Positions 31 through 13,591 of a stretch of DNA of 33,856 nucleotides are shown one piece after another. The notes beneath the pieces are model-generated. The model was given only the letters and a program-made list of their open reading frames with translations. It did not search any database and had not been told where the DNA came from. Positions within the stretch are counted from its first letter, which is position 1. Every line of letters begins with the position of its first letter. The stretch is taken from the IMG/VR virus record IMGVR_UViG_3300032334_000379, positions 1-33,856 of that record; one strand, 5' to 3'. Source of the stretch: a virus. A program made the translations under genes and the position numbers.

Positions 31-36
31 TCACAA

Positions 37-58
37 TGTCAGTGGTTAGGTTTATAAT
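37..58 (+). promoter_or_regulatory. Promoter with TGTCAGTGG box and TATAAT
   Basis: TATAAT lies at 53-58 and TGTCAGTGG at 37-45, with ten bases between TGTCAG and the -10 hexamer. No good TTGACA-like -35 hexamer is present at the 17-base position. The same box at the same spacing occurs before the genes at 1967 and 2326, which makes this a recognisable promoter class rather than chance. Confidence 0.65.
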
Positions 59-87
59 AGAGATACACTAAAAGAAAGAAGAAAACA

Positions 88-480: not shown

Positions 481-515
481 GCGGTTCCCTTTCTTTCCGT
501 CTATAACACCACACC

Positions 516-538
516 TGAGCAAGTGTATAAACTGCTCA
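516..538 (+). repeat. Stem-loop of covarying family, copy 1
   Basis: Arms TGAGCA (516-521) and TGCTCA (533-538) enclose an 11-base loop AGTGTATAAAC. It lies between the stop codon of the gene ending at 480 and tRNA-Glu, and is preceded by CC. The stem pairs change in step with the other copies at 1788, 3729, 4288 and 17363, while the loop end TAAAC is nearly constant. This is the pattern expected for a conserved RNA structure. No strong U-tract follows, so a simple intrinsic terminator is unlikely. Confidence 0.7.
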
Positions 539-543
539 CTTTT

Positions 544-615
544 GGTCCCATCGTCTAGTGGTCAGGACATCAGGTTTTCATCCTGAAAGCGAGAGTTCGA
601 TTCTCTCTGGGACTA
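544..615 (+). tRNA. tRNA-Glu (anticodon TTC)
   Basis: The acceptor arm GGTCCCA pairs with TGGGACT (first pair G-U) and the discriminator is A. The anticodon arm TCAGG/CCTGA has loop TTTTCAT with TTC at positions 34-36, and the T-arm contains GTTCGATTC. No 3' CCA is encoded. It stands alone in the intergenic cassette between the genes at 88 and 763, away from the four-tRNA cluster at 22.1-22.5 kb. Confidence 0.95.
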
Positions 616-624
616 CTTTTCACC

Positions 625-643
625 GCACGTCATTTTACCGTGC
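625..643 (+). repeat. Inverted repeat GCACG...CGTGC, copy 1
   Basis: The 19-base sequence GCACGTCATTTTACCGTGC can form a five-pair stem. An almost identical copy (one base different) lies at 1843-1861. Both sit between the covarying stem-loop and the ATTACGAW-N13-CCCCGAA element, so the order of modules is conserved between the two intergenic regions. Confidence 0.6.
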
Positions 644-682
644 CCCGATTTGGTAACGATTAGGTTAAGAATGCAAAATTGT

Positions 683-710
683 TTTACGAAACACTTGACA
701 AATCCCCGAA
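683..710 (+). repeat. TTTACGAA-N13-CCCCGAA element
   Basis: TTTACGAA (683-690), thirteen bases, then CCCCGAA (704-710). The first base differs from the ATTACGAA of other copies. The -35 hexamer TTGACA of the next promoter lies inside the N13 spacer and CCCCGAA lies in the promoter spacer. A protein bound here would therefore compete directly with RNA polymerase. Confidence 0.6.
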
Positions 711-723
711 ATAATGGGATAAT
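695..723 (+). promoter_or_regulatory. Sigma-A-like promoter for the DUF932 gene
   Basis: TTGACA (695-700), a 17-base spacer and GATAAT (718-723), with ACTTGACAAA context shared by other strong -35 boxes in the window. The leader runs about 33 bases to ATG 763 and carries GAAAGGTG as ribosome site. It overlaps the dispersed element at 683-710, so repression or activation through that element is plausible. Confidence 0.75.
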
Positions 724-762
724 TGAGTATCAAATAAATCCAACAATGAAAGGTGTGTCCCT

Positions 763-1776
763 ATGGCTCACGAATTAGAAATCAACGAAGCAACTGGCGA
801 AGCGTCTTTTGCTTCTCTACGCCAACCTGCTTGGCACAATCTTGGAACTGTGTTTCAGGAAGAAGTATCAACTAGCGAAATGCTATCCTTAGCAAAACTA
901 GACAACTGGAATGTTCGTCTTGAAGATGTAGTTGTCCCTACTGGTTTTTCTAGTGATAGAAACTACTCATTCGTATCAAGAACTAATCCATTCAACGCAG
1001 AACAGACAGACATTCTTGGTGTCGTTGGTGAGCGTTATGTTCCATTACAGAACGAAGACTTGTTCTCGTTTGGTGATAACCTGCTAGATGGTGGTGGTCG
1101 TTGGGAAACTGCTGGTTCAATCAAGGGTGGCAGACAAGTATTCGGTTCAATCGCATTAGAGCGTGAGAGCGTTCTTGACCCTAATGGCGTTGGAGATGTT
1201 GTCAAGTCTTACCTATTGCTAAACACATCTCACGATGGTTCAATCGCAATTCAGGCTTCAATCACTCCTGTTCGTGTAGTTTGTGCTAACACTCTAAACC
1301 TTGCTCTATCTTCTCTAAAAGGTAAAAAGGGTATCAAGCAAACTTTCAAGATTAGACACACACAAACAGCAGAAGGTAAAATCGCAGTTGCTCGTGAAGC
1401 GTTGGGTCTTGCTAATCACTACCTAGACGAGTTTGACCTACTTGCTAAGTCTATGATTGAAACAGAAATCACTCAGGCTAAGTTTGACGAGATTGTTCTA
1501 AAAGCGTATCCAATGCCAACTAAGGACAGCAAGGGTTCTATGAAAAAGTGGAGCGACAAGGTTGAACTTATCCAATCTATCTACACTGGACAATACAACA
1601 ACACCATTGCTGGAACTGCTTGGGGAGCAATGAACGCTCTAACCGAACGCCTAGACTGGTATCGTAATGCTCGTGGTTCAAACAACGAAAGCATTTATGC
1701 TTCTGCTTCTGGTTTTGACCCTGTAATCAACGCTGAGAAAAATCGCATAATGAACTTGGTTCTCGCAAGCGTATAA
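763..1776 (+). CDS. TIGR03299/DUF932 phage-plasmid-like protein
   Basis: A 337-residue protein matching the DUF932 (TIGR03299) family found in phages and plasmids. It has the characteristic opening with PAWHNLGT (about residues 22-29), a central GGGRWETAGSI stretch (about 110-120), LLLNTSHDGS (151-160) and TPVRVVCANTLNLAL (169-183). The length is normal for the family. The biochemical role of the family is not established; some members act in recombination or are expressed early. It is the largest gene of the left arm and has its own strong promoter and a GAAAGGTG ribosome site. Confidence 0.88.
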   Translation: MAHELEINEATGEASFASLRQPAWHNLGTVFQEEVSTSEMLSLAKLDNWNVRLEDVVVPTGFSSDRNYSFVSRTNPFNAEQTDILGVVGERYVPLQNEDLFSFGDNLLDGGGRWETAGSIKGGRQVFGSIALERESVLDPNGVGDVVKSYLLLNTSHDGSIAIQASITPVRVVCANTLNLALSSLKGKKGIKQTFKIRHTQTAEGKIAVAREALGLANHYLDEFDLLAKSMIETEITQAKFDEIVLKAYPMPTKDSKGSMKKWSDKVELIQSIYTGQYNNTIAGTAWGAMNALTERLDWYRNARGSNNESIYASASGFDPVINAEKNRIMNLVLASV

Positions 1777-1787
1777 TCTCGCAGACC

Positions 1788-1809
1788 TGAGCAAGTCTAA
1801 AACTGCTCA
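1788..1809 (+). repeat. Stem-loop of covarying family, copy 2
   Basis: Arms TGAGCA (1788-1793) and TGCTCA (1804-1809) with a 10-base loop AGTCTAAAAC, preceded by CC. It starts 12 bases after the stop codon of the DUF932 gene. The stem is the same as copy 1 but the loop differs in sequence and by one base in length. Confidence 0.7.
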
Positions 1810-1842
1810 CCATTTCCTACTTGACAAAGTGGGCAAATCGGT

Positions 1843-1861
1843 GCACGTCATTTCACCGTGC
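1843..1861 (+). repeat. Inverted repeat GCACG...CGTGC, copy 2
   Basis: GCACGTCATTTCACCGTGC, one base different from the copy at 625-643. An alternative stem CGGTG (1839-1843) with CACCG (1854-1858) is also possible, so the element could switch between two folds. Confidence 0.55.
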
Positions 1862-1899
1862 GGCAAATCTGAAATAGTATAAGTAAATAAAAGAGTTCG

Positions 1900-1927
1900 A
1901 TTACGATAAGGTTACATTTTCCCCGAA
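1900..1927 (+). repeat. ATTACGAT-N13-CCCCGAA element
   Basis: ATTACGAT (1900-1907), N13 containing GGTTACATTTT, then CCCCGAA (1921-1927). It matches the copy at 4540-4567 at most positions. It lies just upstream of the promoter at 1932-1960. Confidence 0.65.
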
Positions 1928-1931
1928 CCTA

Positions 1932-1960
1932 TTGCTTTTGTCAGTGGTGGTCTGTATAAT
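1932..1960 (+). promoter_or_regulatory. Promoter with TGTCAGTGG box, leaderless start
   Basis: TTGCTT (1932-1937), a 17-base spacer and TATAAT (1955-1960). TGTCAGTGG at 1939-1947 has the same ten-base spacing to the -10 as at 37 and 2277. Six bases separate TATAAT from ATG 1967, so transcription should begin at or next to the start codon. Confidence 0.7.
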
Positions 1961-1966
1961 TGTAGT

Positions 1967-2275
1967 ATGAATGAAAACGAAACTATTATCCTTACCCCTG
2001 TTTATGATGAAGAAGATGCTCCTTACATCTACCCTGACGGAAATGACCTAGAAATCTACCAGCGTAGGCAGTTTTACGCTTGGGGGATAGAAGCATTAGA
2101 GAGACAACTATGGGATAGTGCCGAACGAGGTTGGCACGATACCAGTGGTCCAGAGTTCCAGTCCTACCTAAAAATGCTTAGAAGTATAAAGATGAGTATG
2201 GAAGACAAACTAGCCTATGACAATTCTAAGATACTAGATGACGAGATGCTTGAAAAAGCGTCTATGATGTCCTAG
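1967..2275 (+). CDS. Hypothetical acidic protein, leaderless mRNA
   Basis: A 102-residue protein with an acidic N-terminus (PVYDEEDAPYIYPDGND) and a helical middle and C-terminus rich in Arg, Trp, Met and Lys. I recognise no domain. The start is fixed by the promoter: TATAAT ends at 1960 and the ATG begins six bases later, so the message is predicted to be leaderless, which actinobacteria translate well. Its stop is followed within two bases by the TGTCAGTGG box of the next promoter. Confidence 0.8.
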   Translation: MNENETIILTPVYDEEDAPYIYPDGNDLEIYQRRQFYAWGIEALERQLWDSAERGWHDTSGPEFQSYLKMLRSIKMSMEDKLAYDNSKILDDEMLEKASMMS

Positions 2276-2276
2276 A

Positions 2277-2298
2277 TGTCAGTGGTATCCCCTATAAT
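2277..2298 (+). promoter_or_regulatory. Promoter with TGTCAGTGG box and TATAAT
   Basis: TGTCAGTGG at 2277-2285 and TATAAT at 2293-2298, with ten bases between TGTCAG and the -10. The -35 region has no clear hexamer. It drives the gene at 2326 and probably the overlapping genes to 3339. Confidence 0.65.
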
Positions 2299-2325
2299 AG
2301 AAACCTAACAGAAAGAGAAAACCCT

Positions 2326-2559
2326 ATGAAAAGATACTATGTAGAAATCCAAGTAAATTACTGTGGAGACATTGAAGCAGAAAGCCCAGAGCAAGCAGAA
2401 GAAATGGCTTGGCATTCTTACTATGGCGATAACGCTACTCTACAATACGATAGCGTAGAAGACATTAGAGTTGATGAGTATGATGTCTGCGATACCTGTG
2501 GTAATGATGAGCAGGAATACTGTGAATGCGAACCAGAAGAAGAAGAAGATAATGAGTGA
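2326..2559 (+). CDS. Small acidic Cys-rich protein
   Basis: 77 residues. The N-terminal half (MKRYYVEIQVNYCGDIEAES) resembles the short beta-strand plus helix modules seen in many phage proteins that begin K-x-Y-x-V. C55-x2-C58 and C66-x-C68 could bind one zinc, and the tail is almost all Glu and Asp. GAAAGAGAAAA provides a ribosome site. It begins a run of four overlapping genes and its stop codon overlaps the next start. Function unknown. Confidence 0.8.
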   Translation: MKRYYVEIQVNYCGDIEAESPEQAEEMAWHSYYGDNATLQYDSVEDIRVDEYDVCDTCGNDEQEYCECEPEEEEDNE

Positions 2560-2902
2560 TTGTGATTGCGAAAGAGTAGAGTGTCCTAAACACGAAGGCA
2601 ATTTTGATTGTAATTCATTCTGCGACATCTGCGAAGGTAATCAAGATTACTGCCCTACCCACGATGAATGGGAAGCAGAACAAGCAAACATTTATCTAAC
2701 TATGTATAAGGAAAGAGAAGAAGATATGGAAAAAACTATGTTGGAAGAACACAGAGAAGAACTAGCAATGCTAGAACACGAACTACACACTAAAGCATTG
2801 AGCAGATTTGCTATTGCGTGTATTGAAGGTCGCATTAGCGATTTGGATAGTATGATTGCTCAGGACGAATACTGGGAGAAGCAGGAGAAGAAGTATGCTT
2901 GA
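2552..2902 (+). CDS. Cys/His-rich small protein with helical C-terminus
   Basis: Chosen start ATG 2552 overlaps the upstream stop (ATGAGTGA). It gives 116 residues and removes an unlikely N-terminal extension that would be a frame-shifted copy of the upstream gene. Cys and His residues cluster at C4, C6, C11, H14, C20, C24, C27, C34 and H37, which suggests one or two zinc sites. Residues about 45-116 are a long charged helix with heptads. The layout suggests nucleic-acid or protein binding; no family is recognised. Confidence 0.8.
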   Translation: MSDCDCERVECPKHEGNFDCNSFCDICEGNQDYCPTHDEWEAEQANIYLTMYKEREEDMEKTMLEEHREELAMLEHELHTKALSRFAIACIEGRISDLDSMIAQDEYWEKQEKKYA

Positions 2903-3167
2903 ACTAACTGACGAACACTACGAAACTAAGAGAATGGTTTCAGCAACAATTACATACCTGATTGATGTCAATAAAGATAACATCTTCATCAGCGAAGTAG
3001 AAGACTTTGATACCGAAGACGGAACCGAAGAAGACTACGAAGATTTGAAGAGAACTGACGAAGAACTAGAGCGTTCAGCAATCAACGAATTAGCAGAAAT
3101 CATTTATAATTCTGTCAAGTATAATGACCTGACAGATATGATTAGTGTGGAGTTCCATAATGTCTGA
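2895..3167 (+). CDS. Hypothetical acidic protein
   Basis: Start ATG 2895 has a good ribosome site (AGGAGAAGAAG) and overlaps the preceding stop by eight bases; the longer frame from 2856 is not supported. The 90 residues contain a beta-like segment (TITYLIDVNKDNIFISEVED) followed by an acidic helix. This looks like a small alpha/beta phage protein of unknown function, co-translated with its neighbours. Confidence 0.78.
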   Translation: MLELTDEHYETKRMVSATITYLIDVNKDNIFISEVEDFDTEDGTEEDYEDLKRTDEELERSAINELAEIIYNSVKYNDLTDMISVEFHNV

Positions 3168-3339
3168 GATGACAGATAAAGAAATCGTCCTGTCTATGAT
3201 TGATGGCTTCAAGAAAGTCAAGGGTATAAATCAAATGCCTACTCTAGAAGTATTGAAACTAATAGAGATGAGACTAAAGCGTGAAGATGAGTTCAATGAA
3301 TTTGTTAATCATGCTAGAGAAGTTTTGGCTGACATATAG
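3160..3339 (+). CDS. Hypothetical 59-residue helical protein
   Basis: Start ATG 3160 overlaps the stop codon of the preceding gene, typical of translational coupling. The 59 residues (opening MSEMTDKEIVLSMIDGFKKV) are nearly all helix, with a charged C-terminal half. It is the last gene of this operon, followed by a hairpin at 3352-3391. Unknown function. Confidence 0.72.
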   Translation: MSEMTDKEIVLSMIDGFKKVKGINQMPTLEVLKLIEMRLKREDEFNEFVNHAREVLADI

Positions 3340-3351
3340 GGATAATAGGGG

Positions 3352-3391
3352 ACCAGGGTGGTTGGATTAATTTCTGACTGCCCTGGTTTTG
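3352..3391 (+). terminator. Possible terminator after the 2326-3339 operon
   Basis: ACCAGGG (3352-3358) pairs with CCCTGGT (3381-3387) around a 22-base loop, followed by a short T run (TTTT, 3387-3390). The long loop and short T run make it a weak intrinsic terminator. It is the only structure between the operon end and the next promoter. Confidence 0.5.
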
Positions 3392-3449
3392 ACGCACGCC
3401 CCCAAAGATAACGGAATGATAACGATAGAAAAAACTTTGCCGAATACCC

Positions 3450-3478
3450 TTGACTTATAGATGGTTATGCCTTATACT
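3450..3478 (+). promoter_or_regulatory. Sigma-A-like promoter
   Basis: TTGACT (3450-3455), a 17-base spacer and TATACT (3473-3478). The predicted start near 3485 coincides with the hairpin at 3484-3501. A degenerate ATAACGAT...GCCGAA motif (3419-3444) lies just upstream and resembles the dispersed element. Confidence 0.7.
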
Positions 3479-3483
3479 TGTAG

Positions 3484-3501
3484 TATCAACAAAAGTTGAT
3501 A
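3484..3501 (+). promoter_or_regulatory. Hairpin at the predicted 5' end of the transcript
   Basis: TATCAAC (3484-3490), loop AAAA, GTTGATA (3495-3501): a perfect seven-pair stem with a tetraloop. It falls at the expected first bases of the mRNA for the gene at 3541. Such 5'-terminal stem-loops are known to slow 5'-end-dependent decay of mRNA; that role here is inference. Confidence 0.55.
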
Positions 3502-3540
3502 ATCAAGCAACAATTACCCTTCGGGAGAAAAGAGATACAA

Positions 3541-3702
3541 ATGCCAGAAATCAAGGTAGGCGACCGCTACGAAACCAAGACTAACAAGTTTGTTGGTGTA
3601 GTTCAGGAAATCGCCCAGAACAAGAACGGCTCATTCCGTATTCGTTTGGACATTGACGGAAAGTCCCACTGGACATCTGCTCAGGGAACAGTCCTAGCAT
3701 AA
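3541..3702 (+). CDS. Small basic/beta protein, possibly nucleic-acid binding
   Basis: 53 residues from ATG 3541. An in-frame ATG at 3496 lies almost at the transcription start and inside a hairpin, so it is rejected. The sequence (VGDRYETKTNKFVGVVQEIA, then GSFRIRLDIDGKSHWTSA) reads as five short beta strands and resembles small barrel folds of the SH3 or Tudor type. No named family is recognised. It is expressed from its own promoter. Confidence 0.72.
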   Translation: MPEIKVGDRYETKTNKFVGVVQEIAQNKNGSFRIRLDIDGKSHWTSAQGTVLA

Positions 3703-3728
3703 TTCATTCATAACAGAATGATAACATC

Positions 3729-3751
3729 TAGGCAAATGTCTAAACTGCCTA
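3729..3751 (+). repeat. Stem-loop of covarying family, copy 3
   Basis: Arms TAGGCA (3729-3734) and TGCCTA (3746-3751) with loop AATGTCTAAAC (11 bases). Compared with copy 1 the second and third stem pairs have changed to A-T and G-C, with both sides changing. It lies between the stop at 3702 and the next -35 hexamer, which overlaps its last base by none but begins immediately after. Confidence 0.7.
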
Positions 3752-3790
3752 TTTACAAATCCCCCTAAATCCTGTATAATTGTATTATAC
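3752..3790 (+). promoter_or_regulatory. Promoter with dyad over the -10 region
   Basis: TTTACA (3752-3757), a 17-base spacer and TATAAT (3775-3780). A perfect dyad GTATAAT-TGT-ATTATAC (3774-3790) covers the -10 and the expected start site. It could be an operator, or it could give divergent -10 boxes. The spacer contains ATCCCCCTAAAT, similar to the CCCCGAA half of the dispersed element. Confidence 0.7.
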
Positions 3791-3822
3791 AAAAAACAAC
3801 CCTAATAGAAAGTAGATACAAA

Positions 3823-4263
3823 ATGGCAAGAGCCTTATCAGTAAAAGTTCCAACATCAAGCCTAATCGCATTGCTGGAAGACAAAATCGCAACAATCAAG
3901 TCTGCTATCGCAGATTACCCAAGAGCAAAAGAGCAATACAAGGCTGACCTAAAAGCATACAAGCGTTCTGTCCTTGACCTTGCTATTGCTAAGATTACTA
4001 GCAACCCAGAAGTCTTGTTTGATAACGATAGCCTAGAAGTTGGCACATCTTATCGCAATGATGTTCAAATCACTTTGGATAAGGATTTGTTTGAGTTGCC
4101 AGAAATGCCACAGCAACCAGAAGACCCAAGCGTAAAGACTTGGATTGGTAGAGACCACACAACTAAGTTGTCTGTTTTGGAAAAGACTTTGGCTGTTCTA
4201 AAACTAACAACTCAGGAAGAAGTTTCTGCTTCCACATACAACTCTGTAATGGAGTTGCTATAA
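3823..4263 (+). CDS. Hypothetical 146-residue protein
   Basis: It has an N-terminal helical region with a likely coiled coil (LIALLEDKIATIKSAIADYP, about residues 15-34) and further charged helix to about 60. An acidic linker rich in Pro (LPEMPQQPEDPS) follows, with a short helical C-terminus. AGAAAG precedes the ATG by about ten bases. Proteins with this outline are common in actinophage early regions, but I cannot name a family. It is transcribed from the promoter at 3752-3780 and followed by two hairpins and a terminator. Confidence 0.8.
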   Translation: MARALSVKVPTSSLIALLEDKIATIKSAIADYPRAKEQYKADLKAYKRSVLDLAIAKITSNPEVLFDNDSLEVGTSYRNDVQITLDKDLFELPEMPQQPEDPSVKTWIGRDHTTKLSVLEKTLAVLKLTTQEEVSASTYNSVMELL

Positions 4264-4287
4264 ACCATAGGCTTACGCCTAAACACC

Positions 4288-4310
4288 TAAGCAAGTGTCT
4301 AAACTGCTTA
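4288..4310 (+). repeat. Stem-loop of covarying family, copy 4
   Basis: Arms TAAGCA (4288-4293) and TGCTTA (4305-4310), loop AGTGTCTAAAC, preceded by CC. The stem again differs from copies 1 and 3 by paired changes. A small separate hairpin TAGGC-TTAC-GCCTA (4268-4281) sits just before it. Confidence 0.7.
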
Positions 4311-4386
4311 CCCTATTAGGTTAGTTATCCATAATTGAAGCCCATAGTAGAGATAACCGAACTGAACGCTTCACCCTAATAAATTT

Positions 4387-4437
4387 TCCCCCTGTGAAGT
4401 CTGGACACAATCCCGAAAGTAGCAGGGGGATTTTTTT
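4387..4437 (+). terminator. Intrinsic terminator
   Basis: TCCCCCTG (4387-4394) pairs perfectly with CAGGGGGA (4423-4430) and is followed by seven T (4431-4437). The loop is long (28 bases) but the GC-rich stem plus T-tract is convincing. It ends the unit of the gene at 3823. Confidence 0.75.
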
Positions 4438-4482
4438 GGCGTGCGGCAAAATAGTTATGTAAACTAATAATCATTACAATGT

Positions 4483-4507
4483 ATTACGATGTTATAACAA
4501 TTTCCCC
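4483..4507 (+). repeat. ATTACGAT-N13-CCCC element
   Basis: ATTACGAT (4483-4490), thirteen bases, CCCC (4504-4507); the final GAA is replaced by ATG. It is the first of two copies in tandem upstream of the promoter at 4572. Confidence 0.55.
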
Positions 4508-4539
4508 ATGATTATGTAAACCTGTAGACATTGTGTTTG

Positions 4540-4567
4540 ATTACGAAGTGGTAACATTTTCCCCGAA
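4540..4567 (+). repeat. ATTACGAA-N13-CCCCGAA element
   Basis: ATTACGAA (4540-4547), N13 containing GGTAACATTTT, CCCCGAA (4561-4567). It ends four bases before the -35 hexamer. The spacer closely resembles that of the 1900-1927 copy, so the whole 28 bases, not just the ends, are conserved between these two. Confidence 0.65.
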
Positions 4568-4571
4568 AGTC

Positions 4572-4600
4572 TTGTCTTTACGAACGGTATCCTGTATCAT
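4572..4600 (+). promoter_or_regulatory. Sigma-A-like promoter
   Basis: TTGTCT (4572-4577), a 17-base spacer and TATCAT (4595-4600). The start site should be near 4607. That excludes the ATG at 4603 and supports ATG 4636 as the start of the next gene. Confidence 0.65.
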
Positions 4601-4635
4601 AGATGTATACAACCTTTACAGAAAGAGATGACCCT

Positions 4636-5184
4636 ATGCATACTATGCAGTATCTAGCAACAGAACTAGAACTTGATTTAGATGAGCAACACACAGACGA
4701 AGAACTTAGAGCCTTAGCACAAGAGCAAGTAGGCAGTTGGCTAGAGAGTGAAGCAGATGGCTTTGGCTTTGTTGGTGGCTGGTCAGACTGGTATCAGGTT
4801 GGTGGCAGGTATGAAGATGTCCCTATCCTTATCTACAACGATGAGAATGCTTGTTCATTCTTAGAAGCATTAGATATCATTGACCAGAAGCAGTTGGCTC
4901 AGTTCAACGAATACTTTACTGAGTTTGATTTTCCTACTATCAATACTGTTATGACTAAGTATTCTAATGGTGAGAATGTTGACTACCGTGAGATTTACGA
5001 AGCCAACATAACTAGTTTGTCATCTGCATTGAAGATTATGCGTGGCTACTGGAACTGGGATAGTGGTTTCTTTGACACAGAAGACTGCACAATAAAGACA
5101 TCAGCCCTACGCAAAAAACTGGGTATTGACAAGACAGCGTATCGTAGTGTATACTGTTTAGTGCCAGTAGATTTCCACTTCTAA
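4636..5184 (+). CDS. Hypothetical protein with DWYQVGGRYED motif
   Basis: 182 residues from ATG 4636, preceded by AGAAAGAG. It contains GGWSDWYQVGGRYEDVPIL (about 45-63). This is close to the D-W-[FY]-x-[VI]-G-G-R-[WY] motif I associate with a widespread uncharacterised phage protein group. Trp- and Tyr-rich stretches recur (RGYWNWDSGFFD). No enzymatic motif is visible. It is the first gene of a coupled run to 6326. Confidence 0.8.
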   Translation: MHTMQYLATELELDLDEQHTDEELRALAQEQVGSWLESEADGFGFVGGWSDWYQVGGRYEDVPILIYNDENACSFLEALDIIDQKQLAQFNEYFTEFDFPTINTVMTKYSNGENVDYREIYEANITSLSSALKIMRGYWNWDSGFFDTEDCTIKTSALRKKLGIDKTAYRSVYCLVPVDFHF

Positions 5185-5201
5185 GAGAGAGAGTAAACCC
5201 T

Positions 5202-5384
5202 ATGGAAAAGATAACAGCAACAGTTCGCTTTTGGTATTCACAAGAGTTTGAAGTTGAGATAGAAGACCCTAACGATGACAATGACATCCACGATAAGGTG
5301 GCTGAACTTGCCAACGAGATAAAGGTATGGGATGGCAACAACTCATACACAGTTGAGTTTGATGACTACGAGATTGAGTTCTGA
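5202..5384 (+). CDS. Hypothetical 60-residue acidic protein
   Basis: Opens MEKITATVRFWYSQEFEVEI, a beta hairpin, followed by an acidic helix and a final strand rich in Asp and Glu. This beta-alpha-beta layout is shared with the small proteins at 2326 and 2895. GAGAGAG precedes the ATG. Its stop overlaps the next start (TGATG). Confidence 0.75.
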   Translation: MEKITATVRFWYSQEFEVEIEDPNDDNDIHDKVAELANEIKVWDGNNSYTVEFDDYEIEF

Positions 5385-5749
5385 TGACTGAGATGACTGA
5401 AACACAATGGTCTGCTAAATATAGACCTATCAAAAACCATTTAGTTAAAGATGATACTACATCCTTTGAGACCTATGGTGAAGAACTAGACTTTGTATGT
5501 CAGCAACCACACTCTACCGTATGGACTGAGATGGATGGTGACGAAGGTGTTTACATTGTACAAGGTTACCATTTGGCTAATCGTATTCAATACTACATCA
5601 CTGAGATACCGTGGACAGATGACGATGACATCTTTATAACCATTTGTAAGTTTGTTGAGTGCGAATGTATAAATGAAGATGGCGAAGGTAAACAAGATTG
5701 TGAAACATGTTATGGAGATGGGACCTATACTGAATGGAGCATGGACTAA
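5384..5749 (+). CDS. Hypothetical protein with C-terminal zinc-ribbon-like cysteines
   Basis: 121 residues. The N-terminal three quarters lack recognised motifs. The C-terminus has CECINEDGEGKQDCETCYGDG, a C-x-C...C-x2-C-x-G-x-G pattern recalling one repeat of the DnaJ zinc centre but without the J domain. It probably binds one zinc ion. It is translationally coupled on both sides (TGATG and TAATG overlaps). Confidence 0.77.
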   Translation: MTEMTETQWSAKYRPIKNHLVKDDTTSFETYGEELDFVCQQPHSTVWTEMDGDEGVYIVQGYHLANRIQYYITEIPWTDDDDIFITICKFVECECINEDGEGKQDCETCYGDGTYTEWSMD

Positions 5750-5922
5750 TGGAAGATAAAATTAATAAGTATAACAACAACCCTGACTACGATGCAGGGT
5801 ACGAAGAAGGCTGGACAAACGCTATCAACAATGTTCTTGACATCTCACAGCAGATGCGGTATAATGATAACCTTAGTTGGAATAATGAAACCCTAGAAGA
5901 ACTGGAGCAACGAATAGTATGA
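5749..5922 (+). CDS. Small GYxxGW-motif protein
   Basis: 57 residues from ATG 5749, which overlaps the previous stop (TAATG). It carries YDAGYEEGWTNAINNVLD, a Gly-aromatic motif spaced every four residues before a helix. The same pattern is present in the proteins at 8351-8590 and 15104-15355, so the three appear to be paralogues or share a repeat module. Function unknown. Confidence 0.72.
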   Translation: MEDKINKYNNNPDYDAGYEEGWTNAINNVLDISQQMRYNDNLSWNNETLEELEQRIV

Positions 5923-6326
5923 TTTTATGGGACCTGAACGTTTGGTTCAAAGAGAACATCGTAGATGATGAAGTAGTAGTAGAAGATACAATCACTATCA
6001 ATCCTGCGATATATATAGCAAATGATGAGTATGACGTGTATGGTGGTGTTCAAAAAGTCTATACAGGAATCCTTTATAAAACTAATAGTGATGAGACTGC
6101 AAAGATACGAGCATTCCGTAGTGAACAGGAATACGGTAACGATTGGTTTGACTTTGCGGACGAACTGTATGCATTGGATATCAGCAATGGTATCCAGGAA
6201 TTCATTGACTCACTAGGGGACCCTACTACCATCCCTATCCATGACGTAGATGATTTGTATCACATAGATAGTATAGATAAACTTAGTGGGTTGAGAACAC
6301 TCCCTACTAATGGTCAGAGCAGTTAG
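5919..6326 (+). CDS. Hypothetical acidic protein
   Basis: 135 residues, start ATG overlapping the preceding stop by four bases. Rich in Asp, Glu, Tyr and Ile, with no basic patches; it reads as alternating strands and loops. No motif recognised. It is the last gene before the terminator at 6348. Confidence 0.75.
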   Translation: MILWDLNVWFKENIVDDEVVVEDTITINPAIYIANDEYDVYGGVQKVYTGILYKTNSDETAKIRAFRSEQEYGNDWFDFADELYALDISNGIQEFIDSLGDPTTIPIHDVDDLYHIDSIDKLSGLRTLPTNGQSS

Positions 6327-6347
6327 GGGTTTCTGTGTCTGACTAAA

Positions 6348-6395
6348 GGGGAAGCATGAGCGGCATTTTGCTACTTGTGCTTCCCCAACATTTTT
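6348..6395 (+). terminator. Intrinsic terminator overlapping the next promoter
   Basis: GGGGAAGCA (6348-6356) pairs with TGCTTCCCC (6378-6386), nine perfect pairs, with AACATTTTT downstream. The 3' arm contains the -35 hexamer of the following promoter, so termination and initiation signals are interlocked. Confidence 0.72.
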
Positions 6396-6403
6396 GGTAT
6401 AAT
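6375..6403 (+). promoter_or_regulatory. Sigma-A-like promoter within a terminator
   Basis: TTGTGC (6375-6380), a 17-base spacer and TATAAT (6398-6403), with GG just before the -10. It drives the two genes at 6430 and 6614. Confidence 0.65.
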
Positions 6404-6429
6404 GATATGATAAGAGAATAGAGAAAGCA

Positions 6430-6639
6430 ATGAGAAGACAAACAAGAACAAAAGAAGAAAAGTTTGCTGATATAATTAGTAATTGGATAGCAGACTTAAG
6501 ATTTGATTTAGAGTTTGCTGGGCGGTATTTAGCAATGACCTTATCAAATGTAGCATATAGACGATTACTGATTGTCTTAGAAGCAATGAAACACGAAAGA
6601 GAAGAGAATAAGAATGACAGAAACTACATTTCAGAATAA
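6430..6639 (+). CDS. Hypothetical small basic helical protein
   Basis: 69 residues, opening MRRQTRTKEEKFADIISNWI, basic and almost entirely helical. AGAGAAAG precedes the start. Its 3' end overlaps the next gene by 26 bases in another frame. It may bind nucleic acid, but this rests only on charge. Confidence 0.72.
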   Translation: MRRQTRTKEEKFADIISNWIADLRFDLEFAGRYLAMTLSNVAYRRLLIVLEAMKHEREENKNDRNYISE

Positions 6640-6877
6640 ATGTAACATCCTATCAGAACTGTGGATGAACTACCGTAACGACCCTAACTTTGAGGATTTC
6701 ATTTCCTACAGTGACTTAGGGCTTCCTCTAGCATATGCCTTTGCAAATGGTCTAGCAACGCCTACAGGAGCATCAGAGAAGTTTGTAGGGGAAACATTCT
6801 ACCTTCTTCTAAACAGCCTTGAGGTAACCGATACAGGCTTTAATGACCTAGATGAGATATTCGTTGCAGCAGGTTAA
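6614..6877 (+). CDS. Hypothetical 87-residue protein
   Basis: A ribosome site AGAGAAGAG lies inside the preceding gene. The protein (MTETTFQNKCNILSELWMNY, then DLGLPLAYAFANGLATPTGA) has a helical, mostly neutral to acidic composition. The pattern recalls small actinophage proteins with a 'YaDlGlPLAyala' segment, but no function is known to me. It is the last gene on this strand before a strong terminator. Confidence 0.75.
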   Translation: MTETTFQNKCNILSELWMNYRNDPNFEDFISYSDLGLPLAYAFANGLATPTGASEKFVGETFYLLLNSLEVTDTGFNDLDEIFVAAG

Positions 6878-6896
6878 TTAAATAGTATTATTAAAT

Positions 6897-6929
6897 ATAC
6901 TCCTATCTTATGGTAGGGGTATTTTTTTA
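6897..6929 (+). terminator. Strong intrinsic terminator
   Basis: ATACTCCTATC (6897-6907), loop TTAT, GGTAGGGGTAT (6912-6922): eleven pairs including two G-U, followed by a run of T to 6928. It closes the plus-strand left arm. Confidence 0.85.
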
Positions 6930-7012
6930 TACCATCGCAGTGCTGCAAAATAAAACTATTACACATTATTTATAACAAATATGTAACGCAGCAAAATTAA
7001 ACTAAGAATCAT

Positions 7013-7231
7013 ATTACGAACCCTCCAAATTTTTTCCCAGAAGTTTTGTAACTTTTAGGTTACATTTTATTTTGTAACTTTTAGGTTACATTATATAAAT
7101 TAAAATAAATAGATATTACGAAGGGCATATATTTTTCCCAGGGTATTACGAACATGTCCTAATTCCCCTAGTATAAGTATAAACACATAGGCTCTATATA
7201 TGTATTACGAACGTGTATATTTTTTCCCTGA
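7013..7231 (+). repeat. Cluster of four ATTACGAA-N12-15-CCC elements
   Basis: ATTACGAA occurs at 7013-7020, 7115-7122, 7145-7152 and 7204-7211. CCC(C) follows after 15, 14, 12 and 14 bases. The spacers are T-rich before the C-tract, as in the isolated copies upstream of promoters. All copies have the same orientation. Confidence 0.65.
7044..7092 (+). repeat. Perfect 23-base tandem repeat with internal dyad
   Basis: Bases 7044-7066 and 7070-7092 are identical, a period of 26. Each copy contains GTAAC-TTTTAG-GTTAC, an inverted repeat that could be a dimeric protein site. The half AGGTTACATTTT also appears inside the dispersed element at 1900-1927. Confidence 0.8.
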
Positions 7232-7495
7232 TTTTATATATGTTTTATATATATTTGTTTTGTTTTATATATTTTTTATAACAAAATCGTTAAAATACTT
7301 GACAAATTGCACAAAATATGCTATGTGAATTTGGTAGCATAGGATATGTGAAAATGGTATGATAGTGGGCTATGGGGATAAATGATTACGAGGCTTATTA
7401 TACATTTGCACCATTACACATATCTTTTATCTCCACTTTGCTCCACTATGATATCTAAGATATACAGTAAGATGTTTTACACATATTTCTATGTA

Positions 7496-7538
7496 TTTAC
7501 ATGTAAAATTCAAGGGTATTTATGTAAACTTTTACATA
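7496..7538. repeat. Two palindromes built on ATGTAAA
   Basis: TTTACATGTAAA (7496-7507) is a perfect 12-base palindrome. TATGTAAA-CT-TTTACATA (7521-7538) is a perfect eight-base inverted repeat around CT. Both lie just beyond the 3' end of the minus-strand gene at 7546, so they could be operators or part of the origin. No T-tract suggests a terminator. Confidence 0.6.
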
Positions 7539-7545
7539 TTTTTGT

Positions 7546-7752
7546 CTATGCTTTTGGATATTTTCTTTTGAATGCATCTGACTTGACATCAGGGACATTT
7601 CGTTTGTCTGTGATAGCAAATCCACCTAGAGTTTTCTTTGTTTCATAGGTAAAACCAAAGCCCCATAGCCACAACTTGATTCTGATAGGGCTATATCGTC
7701 TTGTGCCATTAGTTAGTTTGTTATATTTGAATGTGTGGACATATCTGCTCAT
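7546..7752 (-). CDS. Small basic hypothetical protein
   Basis: 68 residues, opening MSRYVHTFKYNKLTNGTRRY, strongly basic with aromatic residues and likely beta strands; the C-terminus is KRKYPKA. An AGAAAG ribosome site lies upstream. A -10-like TATAAG follows the ATTACGAA element at 7790-7817 in the direction of transcription. A reading frame on the other strand through this segment is less protein-like. It could be a small DNA-binding protein; no family recognised. Confidence 0.6.
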   Translation of the reverse strand: MSRYVHTFKYNKLTNGTRRYSPIRIKLWLWGFGFTYETKKTLGGFAITDKRNVPDVKSDAFKRKYPKA

Positions 7753-7789
7753 GTGTTATTCTTTCTACTAGGTTTAACTTATACTAGGT

Positions 7790-7817
7790 ATTACGAAGGT
7801 TTCTTTTATTCCCCGAA
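7790..7817 (+). repeat. ATTACGAA-N13-CCCCGAA element, isolated copy
   Basis: ATTACGAA (7790-7797), thirteen bases, CCCCGAA (7811-7817), a perfect match to the consensus ends. Unlike the left-arm copies, the gene it precedes (7546-7752) is on the opposite strand, so orientation relative to transcription is not fixed. The surrounding stretch 7753-7872 contains no gene. Confidence 0.65.
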
Positions 7818-7872
7818 GTTTTAATGCGACCAAGCACAGCATACTATATACTGCACTTAGCCACATATTTTG

Positions 7873-8118
7873 TTATTTAGTCTTTCTCTTAGAGATAGCA
7901 ATACCTAAATCAAAAAGACCTAGAGTAATAGCAACTAGCAAAAGTGGCAAACTATAAGCAGCAACAAACATCATAACCCTCGCAGCATCACTAACTGCTG
8001 CGTGAGAGTTGACATTGAAACCTACTAAAACATAGACTGTGCTAATTGCTACTAGTGGAATTAGTCCTAAAACAATTCCAGTCTTGCGTATTACTTTTTG
8101 TAACTTATCTGTATTCAT
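7873..8118 (-). CDS. Two-transmembrane small membrane protein
   Basis: 81 residues with hydrophobic segments at about 13-34 (IVLGLIPLVAISTVYVLVGF) and 50-72 (MFVAAYSLPLLLVAITLGLF), separated by a short polar loop and ending in basic KRKTK. A GGAG ribosome site precedes it. The topology suits a phage inner-membrane protein such as an exclusion factor or holin-like protein. It is far from the lysin gene, so no lysis role is claimed. Confidence 0.78.
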   Translation of the reverse strand: MNTDKLQKVIRKTGIVLGLIPLVAISTVYVLVGFNVNSHAAVSDAARVMMFVAAYSLPLLLVAITLGLFDLGIAISKRKTK

Positions 8119-8153
8119 TTGTTTCTCCTATTTTTATTTGATTCCAAGGCTTT

Positions 8154-8363
8154 TTATTGCCCCGAATTTTTTACGATTTCAATGATATCCAACATAAACA
8201 GATATCTTGTGCGTGATGCTTCATCATCTAAAGAAACATCCTTCTCTAACTCCAAACCTTTGTTATAAAGAATGTTTAGGATACGTTCTCTCTCTGACCG
8301 AATACCTTTCTCATAGTCAGGTAACTCATGCAGTTCTGCATCTATCTCTGCTAATCTTCCCAT
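8154..8363 (-). CDS. Hypothetical 69-residue helical protein
   Basis: Opens MGRLAEIDAELHELPDYEKG; charged helices with likely coiled-coil character (ERERILNILYNKGLELEKD). Overlaps the end of the upstream gene by 13 bases. No function recognised. Confidence 0.75.
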   Translation of the reverse strand: MGRLAEIDAELHELPDYEKGIRSERERILNILYNKGLELEKDVSLDDEASRTRYLFMLDIIEIVKNSGQ

Positions 8364-8590
8364 CCCACTAACTCCTTATCTTCTTCGTGGTTCTTTACGA
8401 TAGGCAAAATATCTTTCACTTCTATCGGTGTTTCCTGTAGCCAGTCAATCTTCTCAATATGACTAGACAACAAATCTATAATCTGATTCTTCTGCTCAAC
8501 CATACCTGCTTCATAGCCATGCTCCCAGCCTTTATCATATCCATGCTGAACTAGATTAACTCGCCATCTGAAAATTTTTGGTAATTTCAT
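8351..8590 (-). CDS. GYxxGW-motif protein
   Basis: Start chosen at 8590 because AAGGAGGACC sits directly before that ATG; upstream ATGs lack a ribosome site. 79 residues. HGYDKGWEHGYEAGMVEQKN repeats the Gly-aromatic pattern every four residues, then a helix (QIIDLLSSHIEKI). It is related in pattern to 5749-5922 and 15104-15355. It lies downstream of, and overlaps, the DNA glycosylase gene. Confidence 0.78.
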   Translation of the reverse strand: MKLPKIFRWRVNLVQHGYDKGWEHGYEAGMVEQKNQIIDLLSSHIEKIDWLQETPIEVKDILPIVKNHEEDKELVGWED

Positions 8591-9086
8591 GGTCCTCCTT
8601 AAATAGTGGGTCATGTGCAACCCAGTAATACTTACAAGGTTCTTTACGCTCAGGGCAACAAGGGTTGCTATCTTCTAGCGAACTAAAGAACTCAAAGTAA
8701 TAGATAGGGTCTTTAGTATATAGATTAGCCTTATGGCTAGTAGTAAGTCTACTTAATGCAAATGGATTCTTATACCACCGAGGAATTGAATACCCCCAGT
8801 TATCCCCAGCAACAGCCTTAAGATTAGTAAGATTCTCCATGTTTTTATCAGTCTTAATGCCACGTTTATCTGCTTCTTTAACCATAGCCATAGTATATAG
8901 CCATAGTTGACCTTCGTGGTTACGCCACATCTTAACAGCAGGATGATTACGCCAAGCAGCATGTGGGTCATCACTAGACAACACCTTAAGAATCTGGTAA
9001 GACTCTAATATCTGTTTATTTAATCTCTTATTGTCTAGGGCTTGTGCAGACTTATCGAACTGCTTAAATGGTAAAAAGGTTTGCAT
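8556..9086 (-). CDS. Pyrimidine-dimer DNA glycosylase (endonuclease V-type)
   Basis: 176 residues. The N-terminus matches the Pyr_excise family (PF03013): MQTFLPFKQFDKSAQALDNK, then RLNKQILESYQIL and AAWRNHPAVKMW (about 43-54), with Y-x-MAM-VKEADKRG further on. Family members excise UV-induced pyrimidine dimers and nick the abasic site, in the cytoplasm. The C-terminal third has two Cys pairs (NPCCPERKEPC) not essential to the family. It is the first gene of a minus-strand unit with a strong promoter at 9120-9148, so it is probably made early. Confidence 0.82.
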   Translation of the reverse strand: MQTFLPFKQFDKSAQALDNKRLNKQILESYQILKVLSSDDPHAAWRNHPAVKMWRNHEGQLWLYTMAMVKEADKRGIKTDKNMENLTNLKAVAGDNWGYSIPRWYKNPFALSRLTTSHKANLYTKDPIYYFEFFSSLEDSNPCCPERKEPCKYYWVAHDPLFKEDHEITKNFQMAS

Positions 9087-9119
9087 ACGTTCCTATCGTT
9101 TAATGGACCTTATACATCA

Positions 9120-9148
9120 ATTGTACAGGATAATCGCTTGTTTGTCAA
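9120..9148 (-). promoter_or_regulatory. Sigma-A-like promoter for the glycosylase unit
   Basis: On the minus strand: TTGACA (9148-9143), a 17-base spacer and TACAAT (9125-9120). The -35 is embedded in GCTTG-TTTGT-CAAGC (9136-9150), a five-base inverted repeat that might be an operator. It fires divergently from the promoter at 9184. Confidence 0.75.
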
Positions 9149-9183
9149 GCGTAAAGACCTCATATTTCCGCCCGATTTACATA

Positions 9184-9212
9184 TTTACAAACCGAACTTT
9201 TAGTGGTATAAT
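9184..9212 (+). promoter_or_regulatory. Promoter giving a leaderless mRNA
   Basis: TTTACA (9184-9189), a 17-base spacer and TATAAT (9207-9212), with GG just upstream of the -10. ATG 9219 follows six bases after TATAAT. Confidence 0.75.
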
Positions 9213-9218
9213 GTTCTT

Positions 9219-9410
9219 ATGCCTAATAAAACACGCTTTGTAATTGACCCTGACCGCACCTATGTGGTTAAGTTAGACGATGGCGATGAGGTAGAGGTTA
9301 CTGGTCTTGACATTATCCAGATGGGATATCAAGTTAGAAAGACTCAGATGATTATTAAAACTTTTAGAGATTTAGAAGAAAACGAAGAAAACGAATGGAG
9401 TTGGTGGTAA
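9219..9410 (+). CDS. Hypothetical 63-residue protein, leaderless
   Basis: Opens MPNKTRFVIDPDRTYVVKLD; two or three beta strands followed by a helix (QMGYQVRKTQMIIKTFRDLE) and a tail of Glu, Asn and Trp. The promoter geometry fixes the start. Its stop overlaps the next ATG (TAATG). No family recognised. Confidence 0.75.
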   Translation: MPNKTRFVIDPDRTYVVKLDDGDEVEVTGLDIIQMGYQVRKTQMIIKTFRDLEENEENEWSWW

Positions 9411-9622
9411 TGGCTAGACAAAGATTAACATTTATTATTACATGGGGAATGCTATTTCTTAGTTCCCAGATATTGTTACTTATTTTATTTAGTGCAATAG
9501 GCTATGACCCAACTGCTGTTGCTATCAGCGAAACTGTTGCTGGAATATTTACTGCAATGATGACAGCCATGATGATGGTTAGAGAGGATATTGATGGCAA
9601 AGAAATCTTCCGAAAGGAATAG
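9410..9622 (+). CDS. Two-transmembrane small membrane protein
   Basis: 70 residues from ATG 9410, coupled to the upstream stop. Hydrophobic segments run at about 7-29 (FIITWGMLFLSSQILLLILF) and 37-58 (a Met-rich segment). A short charged tail lies on the cytoplasmic side. It could be holin-like, but similar proteins occur throughout actinophage genomes without known function. Confidence 0.72.
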   Translation: MARQRLTFIITWGMLFLSSQILLLILFSAIGYDPTAVAISETVAGIFTAMMTAMMMVREDIDGKEIFRKE

Positions 9623-9704
9623 CAACAGACCAAATGGTAAGGCTTCCAAGAAGCACCCACTAAAGTTTGACCCAATCAAACGTAAGTTAGTTAAGATTAA
9701 TTAA
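9594..9704 (+). CDS. Very small basic protein (36 residues)
   Basis: Starts inside the preceding gene (ATG 9594) and reads MAKKSSERNSNRPNGKASKK, then HPLKFDPIKRKLVKIN. The composition is dominated by Lys, Arg, Ser and Asn. Its stop overlaps the ATG of the next gene (TAATG), supporting a real coupled gene. It could be a nucleic-acid-binding peptide. Confidence 0.55.
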   Translation: MAKKSSERNSNRPNGKASKKHPLKFDPIKRKLVKIN

Positions 9705-9862
9705 TGTCTATTCGTATCTGTGGCTTTTGCATGACAGGACATCACTGGAACTGTAAAAAGACTATTACTTATTATGAGAAAACTTGGGTGTGTGAGTGTC
9801 CCCATCCAGACGATACTCTTCCTGACAAGGAATACAAAAATGAGTTGGAGCAAGAGGTCTAG
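9704..9862 (+). CDS. Small zinc-binding protein (52 residues)
   Basis: C6-x2-C9, H13/H14, C17, then C30-x-C32-x-H34 (motif CECPH) give enough ligands for one or two zincs. Start ATG 9704 overlaps the upstream stop. The last 98 bases overlap, on the opposite strand, the zinc protein gene 9765-9971. Unknown function. Confidence 0.65.
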   Translation: MSIRICGFCMTGHHWNCKKTITYYEKTWVCECPHPDDTLPDKEYKNELEQEV

Positions 9863-9971
9863 GTAATCCACCTAAAACAATCTTATCTTCTTTAGCAGTC
9901 ATTATCTGCTCGTAGGTTGGAAATCCGTAAACAACTGGAACTAAAAGTTCCTGGCACAATGAACAATTCAT
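9765..9971 (-). CDS. Zinc-ribbon protein with LVPVVYGFP motif
   Basis: 68 residues. C3-x2-C6 and C46-x2-C49 form a classic zinc ribbon around ELLVPVVYGFPTYEQ and IVLGGLPRP. The combination C-x2-C...P-[IV]-V-Y-G-x-P...GG...C-x2-C is a recurring actinobacterial and actinophage small-protein type of unknown role. A TATACT hexamer lies six bases upstream of the ATG, suggesting a leaderless mRNA, with only 53 bases to the divergent start at 10025. Confidence 0.7.
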   Translation of the reverse strand: MNCSLCQELLVPVVYGFPTYEQIMTAKEDKIVLGGLPRPLAPTHFCIPCQEEYRLDGDTHTPKFSHNK

Positions 9972-9989
9972 AATATAAGTATAACATCC

Positions 9990-10018
9990 TTTACTTTTAT
10001 TTGGTTATAGGGTATAAT
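9990..10018 (+). promoter_or_regulatory. Promoter giving a leaderless mRNA for the sugar cluster
   Basis: TTTACT (9990-9995), a 17-base spacer, GG then TATAAT (10013-10018). ATG 10025 follows after six bases. It likely transcribes the coupled genes 10025-12604. Confidence 0.75.
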
Positions 10019-10024
10019 AGATAT

Positions 10025-10411
10025 ATGATTATTACTGACATTGACGATACCGTCCTAGAACACATGAGTTCTACCCCCATTAAAAAAACCATTGACTACA
10101 TCAACTCACTAAATACTAAGGTAGTTGTGATTAGTGGAAGAAGCCGAAGCATGAGAGCAGAGACAGAGAAGGCTCTCAGGGATGCTGGACTAAAGTATAG
10201 TAGTCTTCTTCTTAATCCATATAACTATAAATTTACTAACAAGTGGAAGGCTGAGTGTGCCGAAAAACTTTCTGATGCTACCCTTGCCATTGACGATAAC
10301 ACAGGAGCCAGGAACGTTTACGAGAAGGCTGGTATCAAGGCTATCCATCCCAAAGATGTGCCAGACATGGATAAGTTCTGGTCATTGTTTGAAATAGAAA
10401 GCGGATACTAA
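10025..10411 (+). CDS. HAD-superfamily phosphatase/hydrolase
   Basis: 128 residues from ATG 10025 (the longer frame starts upstream of the -10 box). Motif I is D5-I-D7-D8-T9 (TDIDDTVLEH), motif II is the Ser of VVVISGRSR (about 37-45), and motif IV is the DD of LAIDDN (about 90-95). It matches small phage HAD enzymes related to polynucleotide 3'-phosphatases, without the kinase domain. The substrate is unknown. Being first in a cluster of sugar genes, it might act on a sugar phosphate instead. Coupled to the next gene by a TAATG overlap. Confidence 0.8.
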   Translation: MIITDIDDTVLEHMSSTPIKKTIDYINSLNTKVVVISGRSRSMRAETEKALRDAGLKYSSLLLNPYNYKFTNKWKAECAEKLSDATLAIDDNTGARNVYEKAGIKAIHPKDVPDMDKFWSLFEIESGY

Positions 10412-12605: not shown

Positions 12606-13289
12606 TTATTCATCTTTAGTTTTTTGCTTGACCAGAGATAGCATTCGTTCTGGTGTTGATGCAGAATAATATAACCAATAAAGTTCTATATTACGAAGAT
12701 GATTAAAATTAAATCCTGGGTCATGTATTTGAACATCATGTCCCAAACAATAAATATATCCATCATGTTTAATTAATTTGCTACCCTTAATGATTGTGTG
12801 TGCCAATTCAAATGCTGAATCTTCTCCGCCCCATTGAACAAACTTTTCATCCATGCCCCCAACAGACCACCATGCTTCTGGTGTACAAACATAAATGCCA
12901 CCATTGGCTTCTGTATATAATGTATGTTTAAGTAATTTAATATCTGAGCCATCAAAAAACTTTTGAGTCATTTCTTTATCAAAATATTTACAAAGTCTGT
13001 AAGGATTATGAATCATACCATCTTCTTGGCATTGTTTTATTGCTTCCAATAAAGGCTCAATTTCGGGTAGTGTATCTGCATCATTAATAATAATAACGTC
13101 ACAGTGAGCCTCCTGTGCCTTTTTTACACCATCATTACGACTGGCTGAAGCATTCCAGAATTCCCCTGGTCTATCGCTATAGAATATCTCAATGTCTGCT
13201 AAATTAGTTTTATACCAAAAAAGAACAGCCTCTAAAGGTTTTATCCTAGAAGGCTGCTCTCTCCATGGTATTACTAATCCTAGTTTCAT
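12606..13289 (-). CDS. Family 2-like glycosyltransferase
   Basis: 227 residues. KLGLVIPWREQ at the N-terminus, SASRNDGVKKAQ (about 48-59), then VIIINDADTLPE with the D-x-D metal motif (about 66-77), and VGGMDEKFVQWGGEDSAFEL (about 143-162), typical of the GalNAc-transferase/chondroitin synthase-type GT2 group. It transfers an activated sugar; the acceptor is unknown. Although on the other strand, it adjoins the sugar cluster tail to tail. The start overlaps the stop of the GroES-like gene. Confidence 0.85.
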   Translation of the reverse strand: MKLGLVIPWREQPSRIKPLEAVLFWYKTNLADIEIFYSDRPGEFWNASASRNDGVKKAQEAHCDVIIINDADTLPEIEPLLEAIKQCQEDGMIHNPYRLCKYFDKEMTQKFFDGSDIKLLKHTLYTEANGGIYVCTPEAWWSVGGMDEKFVQWGGEDSAFELAHTIIKGSKLIKHDGYIYCLGHDVQIHDPGFNFNHLRNIELYWLYYSASTPERMLSLVKQKTKDE

Positions 13290-13591
13290 TCCTCTTCATC
13301 ACCAAGGATTGCCAAAACACTAGCACTATATAAAGATAGATAGTCATTTCCATCATGCTTAAATTTCATAACATTATTAGGATTAAACATGATTTTGTCT
13401 CCTACTTTTACATCCATTGGTACACGGACACCATTCTTTAGTTGTCTACCCTCGCCTACAGCAAAGGCAACCCCAATGTTTTTTGGTTCGTCTGATGGAC
13501 CCACAGAAAGCAATAGACCAGATGCAGTCTTTTCTGGTTCTGTTTTCTTTTCTACTTTGATAATAATAATATCTTCTGGTGCTTTAATCAT
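13286..13591 (-). CDS. GroES-like co-chaperonin (Cpn10)
   Basis: 101 residues, the normal Cpn10 length. It starts IKAPEDIIIIKVEKKTEPEK like the 'P-L-x-D-R-V' first strand, has a mobile-loop region (KTASGLLL), then VAFAVGEGRQLKNG, VGDKIMFNP and YLSLYSASVLAIL at the C-terminus. Cpn10 caps GroEL and is a heptamer. Phage versions (for example T4 Gp31) can adapt host GroEL to fold capsid protein. No GroEL is in the window. Confidence 0.82.
   Translation of the reverse strand: MIKAPEDIIIIKVEKKTEPEKTASGLLLSVGPSDEPKNIGVAFAVGEGRQLKNGVRVPMDVKVGDKIMFNPNNVMKFKHDGNDYLSLYSASVLAILGDEEE

Follow-up and report, generated by a model that had tools for sequence, protein, structure and literature searches.

A repeat-rich intergenic gap as a candidate DnaA-assisted replication origin in a clade of uncultured phages

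We propose that a gene-free, repeat-rich gap in the window (the whole 33.9-kb IMG/VR fragment analysed here) corresponds to a replication origin which, in its phage clade, would open with assistance from host DnaA. No other single reading suits the clade as well, and we hold this one with about even confidence; an injection-stop region and a transcription-control hub are serious rivals. What was observed directly is the set of sequence elements and how they are conserved, phased, oriented and positioned. The initial annotation had called the gap a candidate origin from its repeats and A+T-rich DNA, and this stands in part: array, A+T-rich tract, DnaA boxes and DnaA-trios occupy the orthologous regions of the clade, and the window itself is without DnaA boxes. 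For phages equipped with a polymerase, helicase and primase of their own, the choice of a start site is often not understood, and a phased, conserved trio/box module gives a direct test of whether host DnaA opens these phage genomes.

Layout of the gap

The gap (6930-7540, ∼ 620 bases, A+T-rich, Table 1) has convergent flanks: a left arm of small genes, the last of which ends on the plus strand at 6877, and a minus-strand ORF (7546-7752). It had been described as more than 600 bases without a believable gene, separating a plus-strand left arm from a minus-strand unit, and both statements hold; the only long ORF inside (7382-7648, +) loses its frame in relatives and was rejected as a gene. One intrinsic terminator was found near the gap, versus 0.3 expected. 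The 400-base stretch with the lowest GC content of the window (24.5%) is centred at 7147. No nucleotide matches of the region to named phages were found.

All of the repeats reported earlier were recovered, namely four ATTACGAA iterons, a 23-base tandem repeat, TATAT-rich tracts at 7231-7280 and paired ATGTAAA palindromes at 7496-7538. The tandem repeat was rightly called perfect over 23 bases, but its period is 26: the unit, TTTTGTAACTTTTAGGTTACATTTTA, lies at 7044-7069 and 7070-7095, and the first 23 bases are identical. This repeat is absent from the nearest relatives aligned. The promoter-like TTGACA-N17-TATGTG of Table 1 was not among the predictions of a promoter scan of the window. In relatives L266 and L269 the ATTACGA half-element sits within the spacer of a TTGACA-N17 promoter-like sequence. 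Runs of GGGG, e.g. GGGGTATTTGGGGATATAAATGTTTGGGGATAAGGGG, lie just left of the half-element in L266 and other relatives and could form G-quadruplexes.

Two further readings of such a gap were considered. A structured non-coding RNA would suit window positions 7350-7460, which can fold into a long hairpin (DNA z -2.0; RNA z -2.9); over 40 loci, however, the mean RNA z was -0.47 with 7% below -2, there was no Rfam match, and RNAalifold returned no structure from a 60-sequence alignment whose gappiness makes the result uninformative. We regard this RNA as very improbable. Less credible still is a centromere-like or partition site, which the initial annotation had offered beside an origin and for which we found no support. 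The tandem and inverted repeats are all that it would account for; adjoining the gap, no partition gene was recognised, and an unwinding-type module such as that described below is not a partition feature.

Table 1. Features of the gap and copies of the bipartite repeat in the window.
Feature	Position	Strand	Basis
Bipartite repeat, preceding ORF 1967-2275 by 67 bp	1900..1923	+	pattern scan
Bipartite repeat, upstream of ORF 4603-5184	4483..4506	+	pattern scan
Bipartite repeat, immediately before the promoter-like pair TTGTCT-N17-TATCAT and ORF 4603-5184	4540..4563	+	scans
Intrinsic terminator at end of plus-strand left arm	6897..6922	+	11-pair stem, 4-nt loop, T run
Bipartite repeat copy 1, ATTACGAA-N15-CCC	7013..7038	+	pattern scan
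26-bp tandem repeat with GTAAC/GTTAC dyads	7044..7095	.	repeat analysis, alignment
Bipartite repeat copy 2	7115..7139	+	pattern scan
Bipartite repeat copy 3, ATTACGAA-N12-CCCC, then TAGTATAAG	7145..7168	+	pattern scan
Bipartite repeat copy 4	7204..7228	+	pattern scan
A+T-rich tract with TATAT runs, also A+T-rich in relatives; candidate melting region	7229..7286	.	composition, alignment
Promoter-like TTGACA-N17-TATGTG; TTGACA kept in most relatives	7299..7327	+	read in sequence and alignment
ATTACGA half-element	7385..7391	+	pattern scan, alignment
Two CTCCACT units, 10-bp period (relatives commonly three)	7431..7447	+	sequence comparison
CAGTAAGAT, three NAN trinucleotides (CAG TAA GAT)	7465..7473	+	comparison with 12 related loci
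TTTACAY/ATGTAAA cluster where relatives have tandem TGTGGATAA boxes	7475..7538	.	alignment, pattern scan
Bipartite repeat, right of ORF 7546-7752, kept in relatives	7790..7814	+	pattern scan, alignment

A bipartite repeat confined to one strand

ATTACGAA proved to belong to a larger, bipartite element, ATTACGA[AT]-N9-16-YCCC, of which it forms the left half. The window holds seven exact matches (1.0 expected; seven was reached in 0/100 shuffles), four of them in the gap (7013, 7115, 7145 and 7204, all +) and the others at 4540, 7790 and 12690. The extended form ATTACGAA-N8-20-TTTTCCC occurs 4 times versus 0.00 expected, and ATTACGAG lies at 7385. Across 13 genomes including the window (∼ 0.9 Mb) the bipartite repeat is found 79 times on one strand and 0 times on the other, with a single occurrence of the reversed control pattern; 49 of the 79 copies lie within 900 bases left of CAGTAAG. 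Another 41 loci, picked by a different pattern, gave 100 same-strand copies within 1.2 kb and 0 reversed. A sigma-factor promoter reading of ATTACGA-CCC was rejected, since the strand is constant whatever the direction of the neighbouring gene and the spacing in the window varies from 12 to 15.

Theta origins of the iteron and DnaA-box type (phage P1 oriR, iteron plasmids) combine same-strand repeats, an A+T-rich tract and DnaA boxes. Here, a same-strand repeat array likewise lies with A+T-rich DNA. Unlike these origins, no adjacent initiator gene was recognised among the ORFs scanned (Pfam/PHROGs; small ORFs remain), the repeats also precede other genes, and trios are present.

Copies left of the array lie mostly ∼ 60–150 bp upstream of plus-strand left-arm ORFs, a placement expected if the region were a transcription-control hub, with a phage regulator on the ATTACGA-CCC repeats, DnaA acting as a transcription factor or being titrated, and no origin. 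Promoter-like sequences do occur throughout the region, and in some relatives DnaA boxes precede left-arm promoters, so that the boxes could be regulatory. However, in the window the region comes at the end of the left arm and has no gene that it could drive rightwards, and neither regulation nor titration needs in-frame trios 5′ of boxes at a fixed short distance. We consider the hub unlikely.

DnaA-trios and DnaA boxes in relatives

In relatives, the order of elements right of the array is the A+T-rich tract, a CTTGACA element, often CTCCACT units (10-bp period), CAGTAAG and, a short distance on, TGTGGATAA, whose reverse complement is TTATCCACA, a strong DnaA box. A second TGTGGATAA box usually follows ∼ 12 bases beyond the first. 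At all 12 related loci examined, which were reached via the phage's DNA polymerase and not via the boxes, CAGTAAG stands beside the array and is followed within 150 bp by one to three perfect TGTGGATAA boxes, on one strand only and never reversed. The two-box pattern is present in at least 120 viral contigs and had one match in ∼ 85 000 bacterial and archaeal species genomes. This sole match (L452, CANGYR010000020.1) lies in a contig binned to a Chitinophagaceae MAG; its flanks are of phage type, and it is probably a misbinned phage contig.

During bacterial unwinding, DnaA first occupies a box and then spreads over NAN trios located 5′ of TGTGGATAA on the same strand; the published search for B. 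subtilis-type systems asks for three or more such trios no further than 16 bp from a DnaA box (PMC8287927). The strand orientation of the trios used here is our interpretation of that description (consensus 3′-GAT-5′, 5′-tail with trios). At least three consecutive NAN trios (CAG TAA GAT) stand beside the box site in the right orientation in the window and in relatives; in relatives, boxes within two mismatches of TTATCCACA lie near them. The four trinucleotides left of the searched motif have A as the middle base in 92, 93, 82 and 64% of 74 dereplicated loci (predicted frame), where the pattern search had fixed the nine bases CAG-TAA-GAT except one and had imposed no phase further left. The mean NAN run at these loci is 2.95 trinucleotides in the predicted frame versus 0.58 and 1.01 in the others, and it is this contrast between frames that constitutes the evidence, not the absolute NAN value, because the A+T-rich stretch raises all frames.

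The module of the relatives thus resembles the basal origin unwinding system (BUS) of bacterial oriC (B. subtilis type) in its trios, short spacer and one to three boxes, in their order and orientation and in the adjoining A+T-rich DNA. It differs in lying on a phage genome, next to the phage's own repeat array and CTCCACT units of 10-bp period, and in that the window's version is without DnaA boxes. We found no report of DnaA-trios in a phage in the open-access literature.

DnaA-box-like sites were also seen elsewhere in this group. Relatives G030 (38–44 kb), G034 (85–90 kb) and G041 (11–15 kb) carry repeated AGTTATCCACAGG sites in the spaces separating small genes of the left arm, shortly ahead of promoter-like sequences and roughly 9–20 kb left of the array.

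The box-less version in the window

No perfect TGTGGATAA accompanies CAGTAAGAT in the window. The place of the boxes is taken by the TTTACAY cluster: TTTACA[CT] occurs 13 times in the 33.9 kb on both strands, with five copies starting within 7476-7531, and a near relative (G012) has three perfect boxes at this very place. The closest 9-mer to a DnaA box in the window, TTTTACACA, has two mismatches and the opposite orientation, and no box of the BUS type with the right orientation was found there. Because the window lacks the boxes, the initial annotation could not have seen them, and for this phage the origin call draws on position, array, A+T-rich tract and CAGTAAGAT only. Exact scans revealed no other viral contigs with the TTTACAY version; those returned by a looser TTTACAY scan all lack the repeat array, resemble chance matches and were set aside.

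Either another box or protein is in use in the window's phage, or the module is defective or recently changed. The box-less version may be a working alternative, a change following another host, or decay. Lacking the boxes but keeping the rest, the window offers a natural variant in which to look for a substitute for DnaA.

Comparison with T5 and NootNoot

The left terminal repeat of phage T5 (AY543070) extends from 1 to 10219. Its plus-strand genes end at 9157, with a terminator next, the annotated injection stop signal spans 9140-10149, and minus-strand genes lie beyond the repeat end at 10219. CAGTAGGAT is found at 9424; two 9-mers resembling degenerate boxes come next, and TGTGGATAA occurs in perfect form at 9510. 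The stop signal has been described with repeats, palindromes and DnaA boxes (PMC13250531, 2026). The T5 stop region is thus like the region studied here in the end of the plus-strand arm, the terminator, the repeats and palindromes, CAGTAGGAT, the 12-bp-spaced boxes and the minus-strand genes, and unlike it in its repeat families. Relatives of the window share this layout of repeats, palindromes and DnaA boxes in the gap; the window has it without the boxes. Since in T5 the same layout carries another annotated function, injection stop and not origin, an origin is only a candidate function here. The similar module also raises the question of whether the unexplained DnaA boxes of T5 are a strand-opening element.

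A T5-type boundary of this kind, at which repeats, palindromes and boxes pause entry after the left-arm (pre-early) genes and have no replication role, is suggested by the shared layout and by the DnaA boxes placed within the T5 stop signal (PMC13250531). By analogy only, the corresponding gap of the related Streptomyces phage NootNoot (Stanwilliamsviridae) contains the terminal-repeat boundary and two copies of the bipartite repeat, matching in place and strand. It occupies the same convergent position beside a DUF932 arm and, unlike the gaps of the relatives, has no TTATCCACA-type DnaA boxes nearby. Contig ends also pile up on the array side: among 119 CAGTAA/DnaA-box contigs, ends are several times denser within 1.5 kb there than on the other side (27 left versus 7 right), for which repeats, strain variation or a genome end could be the cause. 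On the other hand, the phasing of the trios is hard to account for by a stop signal alone. We know of no two-step injection in the window's phage group, and the one left-arm protein pair tested, T5.011 versus the DUF932 protein, showed no homology. An injection stop without a replication role appears to us quite unlikely.

Among other phages, the T5 relative Salmonella phage bombadil (L453) has CAGTAGGAT with three perfect boxes. Both bombadil and Microbacterium phage Squash (L455) carry tandem 12-bp-spaced TGTGGATAA boxes in gaps near the ends of their records, which suggests that the module or its box pair is more widespread.

Replication genes and proposed mechanism

Judged by its DNA polymerase, the window is closest, among named phages, to Streptomyces phages of the family Stanwilliamsviridae (∼ 56% identity). 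All eight checked pattern-bearing records of at least 94 kb have the same polymerase (77–81% identity), so the pattern carriers represent one phage clade; no copy of the region could be recognised in G038, a 94.8-kb record whose polymerase is related. In the nearest near-complete relative, DnaB, DnaG, a DnaE-type polymerase and RecA/UvsX were all matched. The matches listed for it included neither a DnaA nor a Rep-type initiator (Pfam/PHROGs, best 25 families per table, ORFs of at least 110 aa in part of the genome), and as most genes are without assigned function, a phage initiator could have been missed. A replisome of its own with no recognised initiator would fit the use of host DnaA.

For the origin reading we envisage the following sequence of events. 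Host DnaA would bind the tandem TGTGGATAA boxes of the relatives and extend leftwards onto the NAN trinucleotides that end with CAG-TAA-GAT. The adjacent A+T-rich DNA would then open, allowing the helicase (DnaB), primase (DnaG) and DnaE-type polymerase encoded by the phage itself to load. The ATTACGA-N-CCC repeats would be the target of a putative phage protein; since copies of this repeat also precede left-arm genes, the protein probably regulates those genes as well. More tentatively, and with confidence that falls somewhat short of even, we speculate that a large uncultured freshwater phage clade, probably with actinobacterial hosts, shares with T5-like phages a DnaA-trio/box module at the left-arm/terminal-repeat gap, through which host DnaA would open the genomes despite their own replisome, and that the window's phage has swapped the DnaA boxes for another box.

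GC skew

A minimum of cumulative GC skew at the gap had been proposed as a check of the origin. It was not seen, which by this check counts against an origin: the minimum lies 18–35 kb from the locus in 10/10 genomes, and instead the maximum of the detrended cumulative skew falls within 1 kb of the locus in six of the ten, the others being 3–14 kb away. A maximum at the locus would suit a terminus, though it tracks gene direction. In the window the skew changes sign largely where gene direction switches; it therefore mostly reports transcription, and the test decides little.

Outside the gap, the window encodes a GroES-like co-chaperonin (13286-13591, minus; PHROG match) and, by reading only, a thioredoxin-like ORF (15387-15635, minus).
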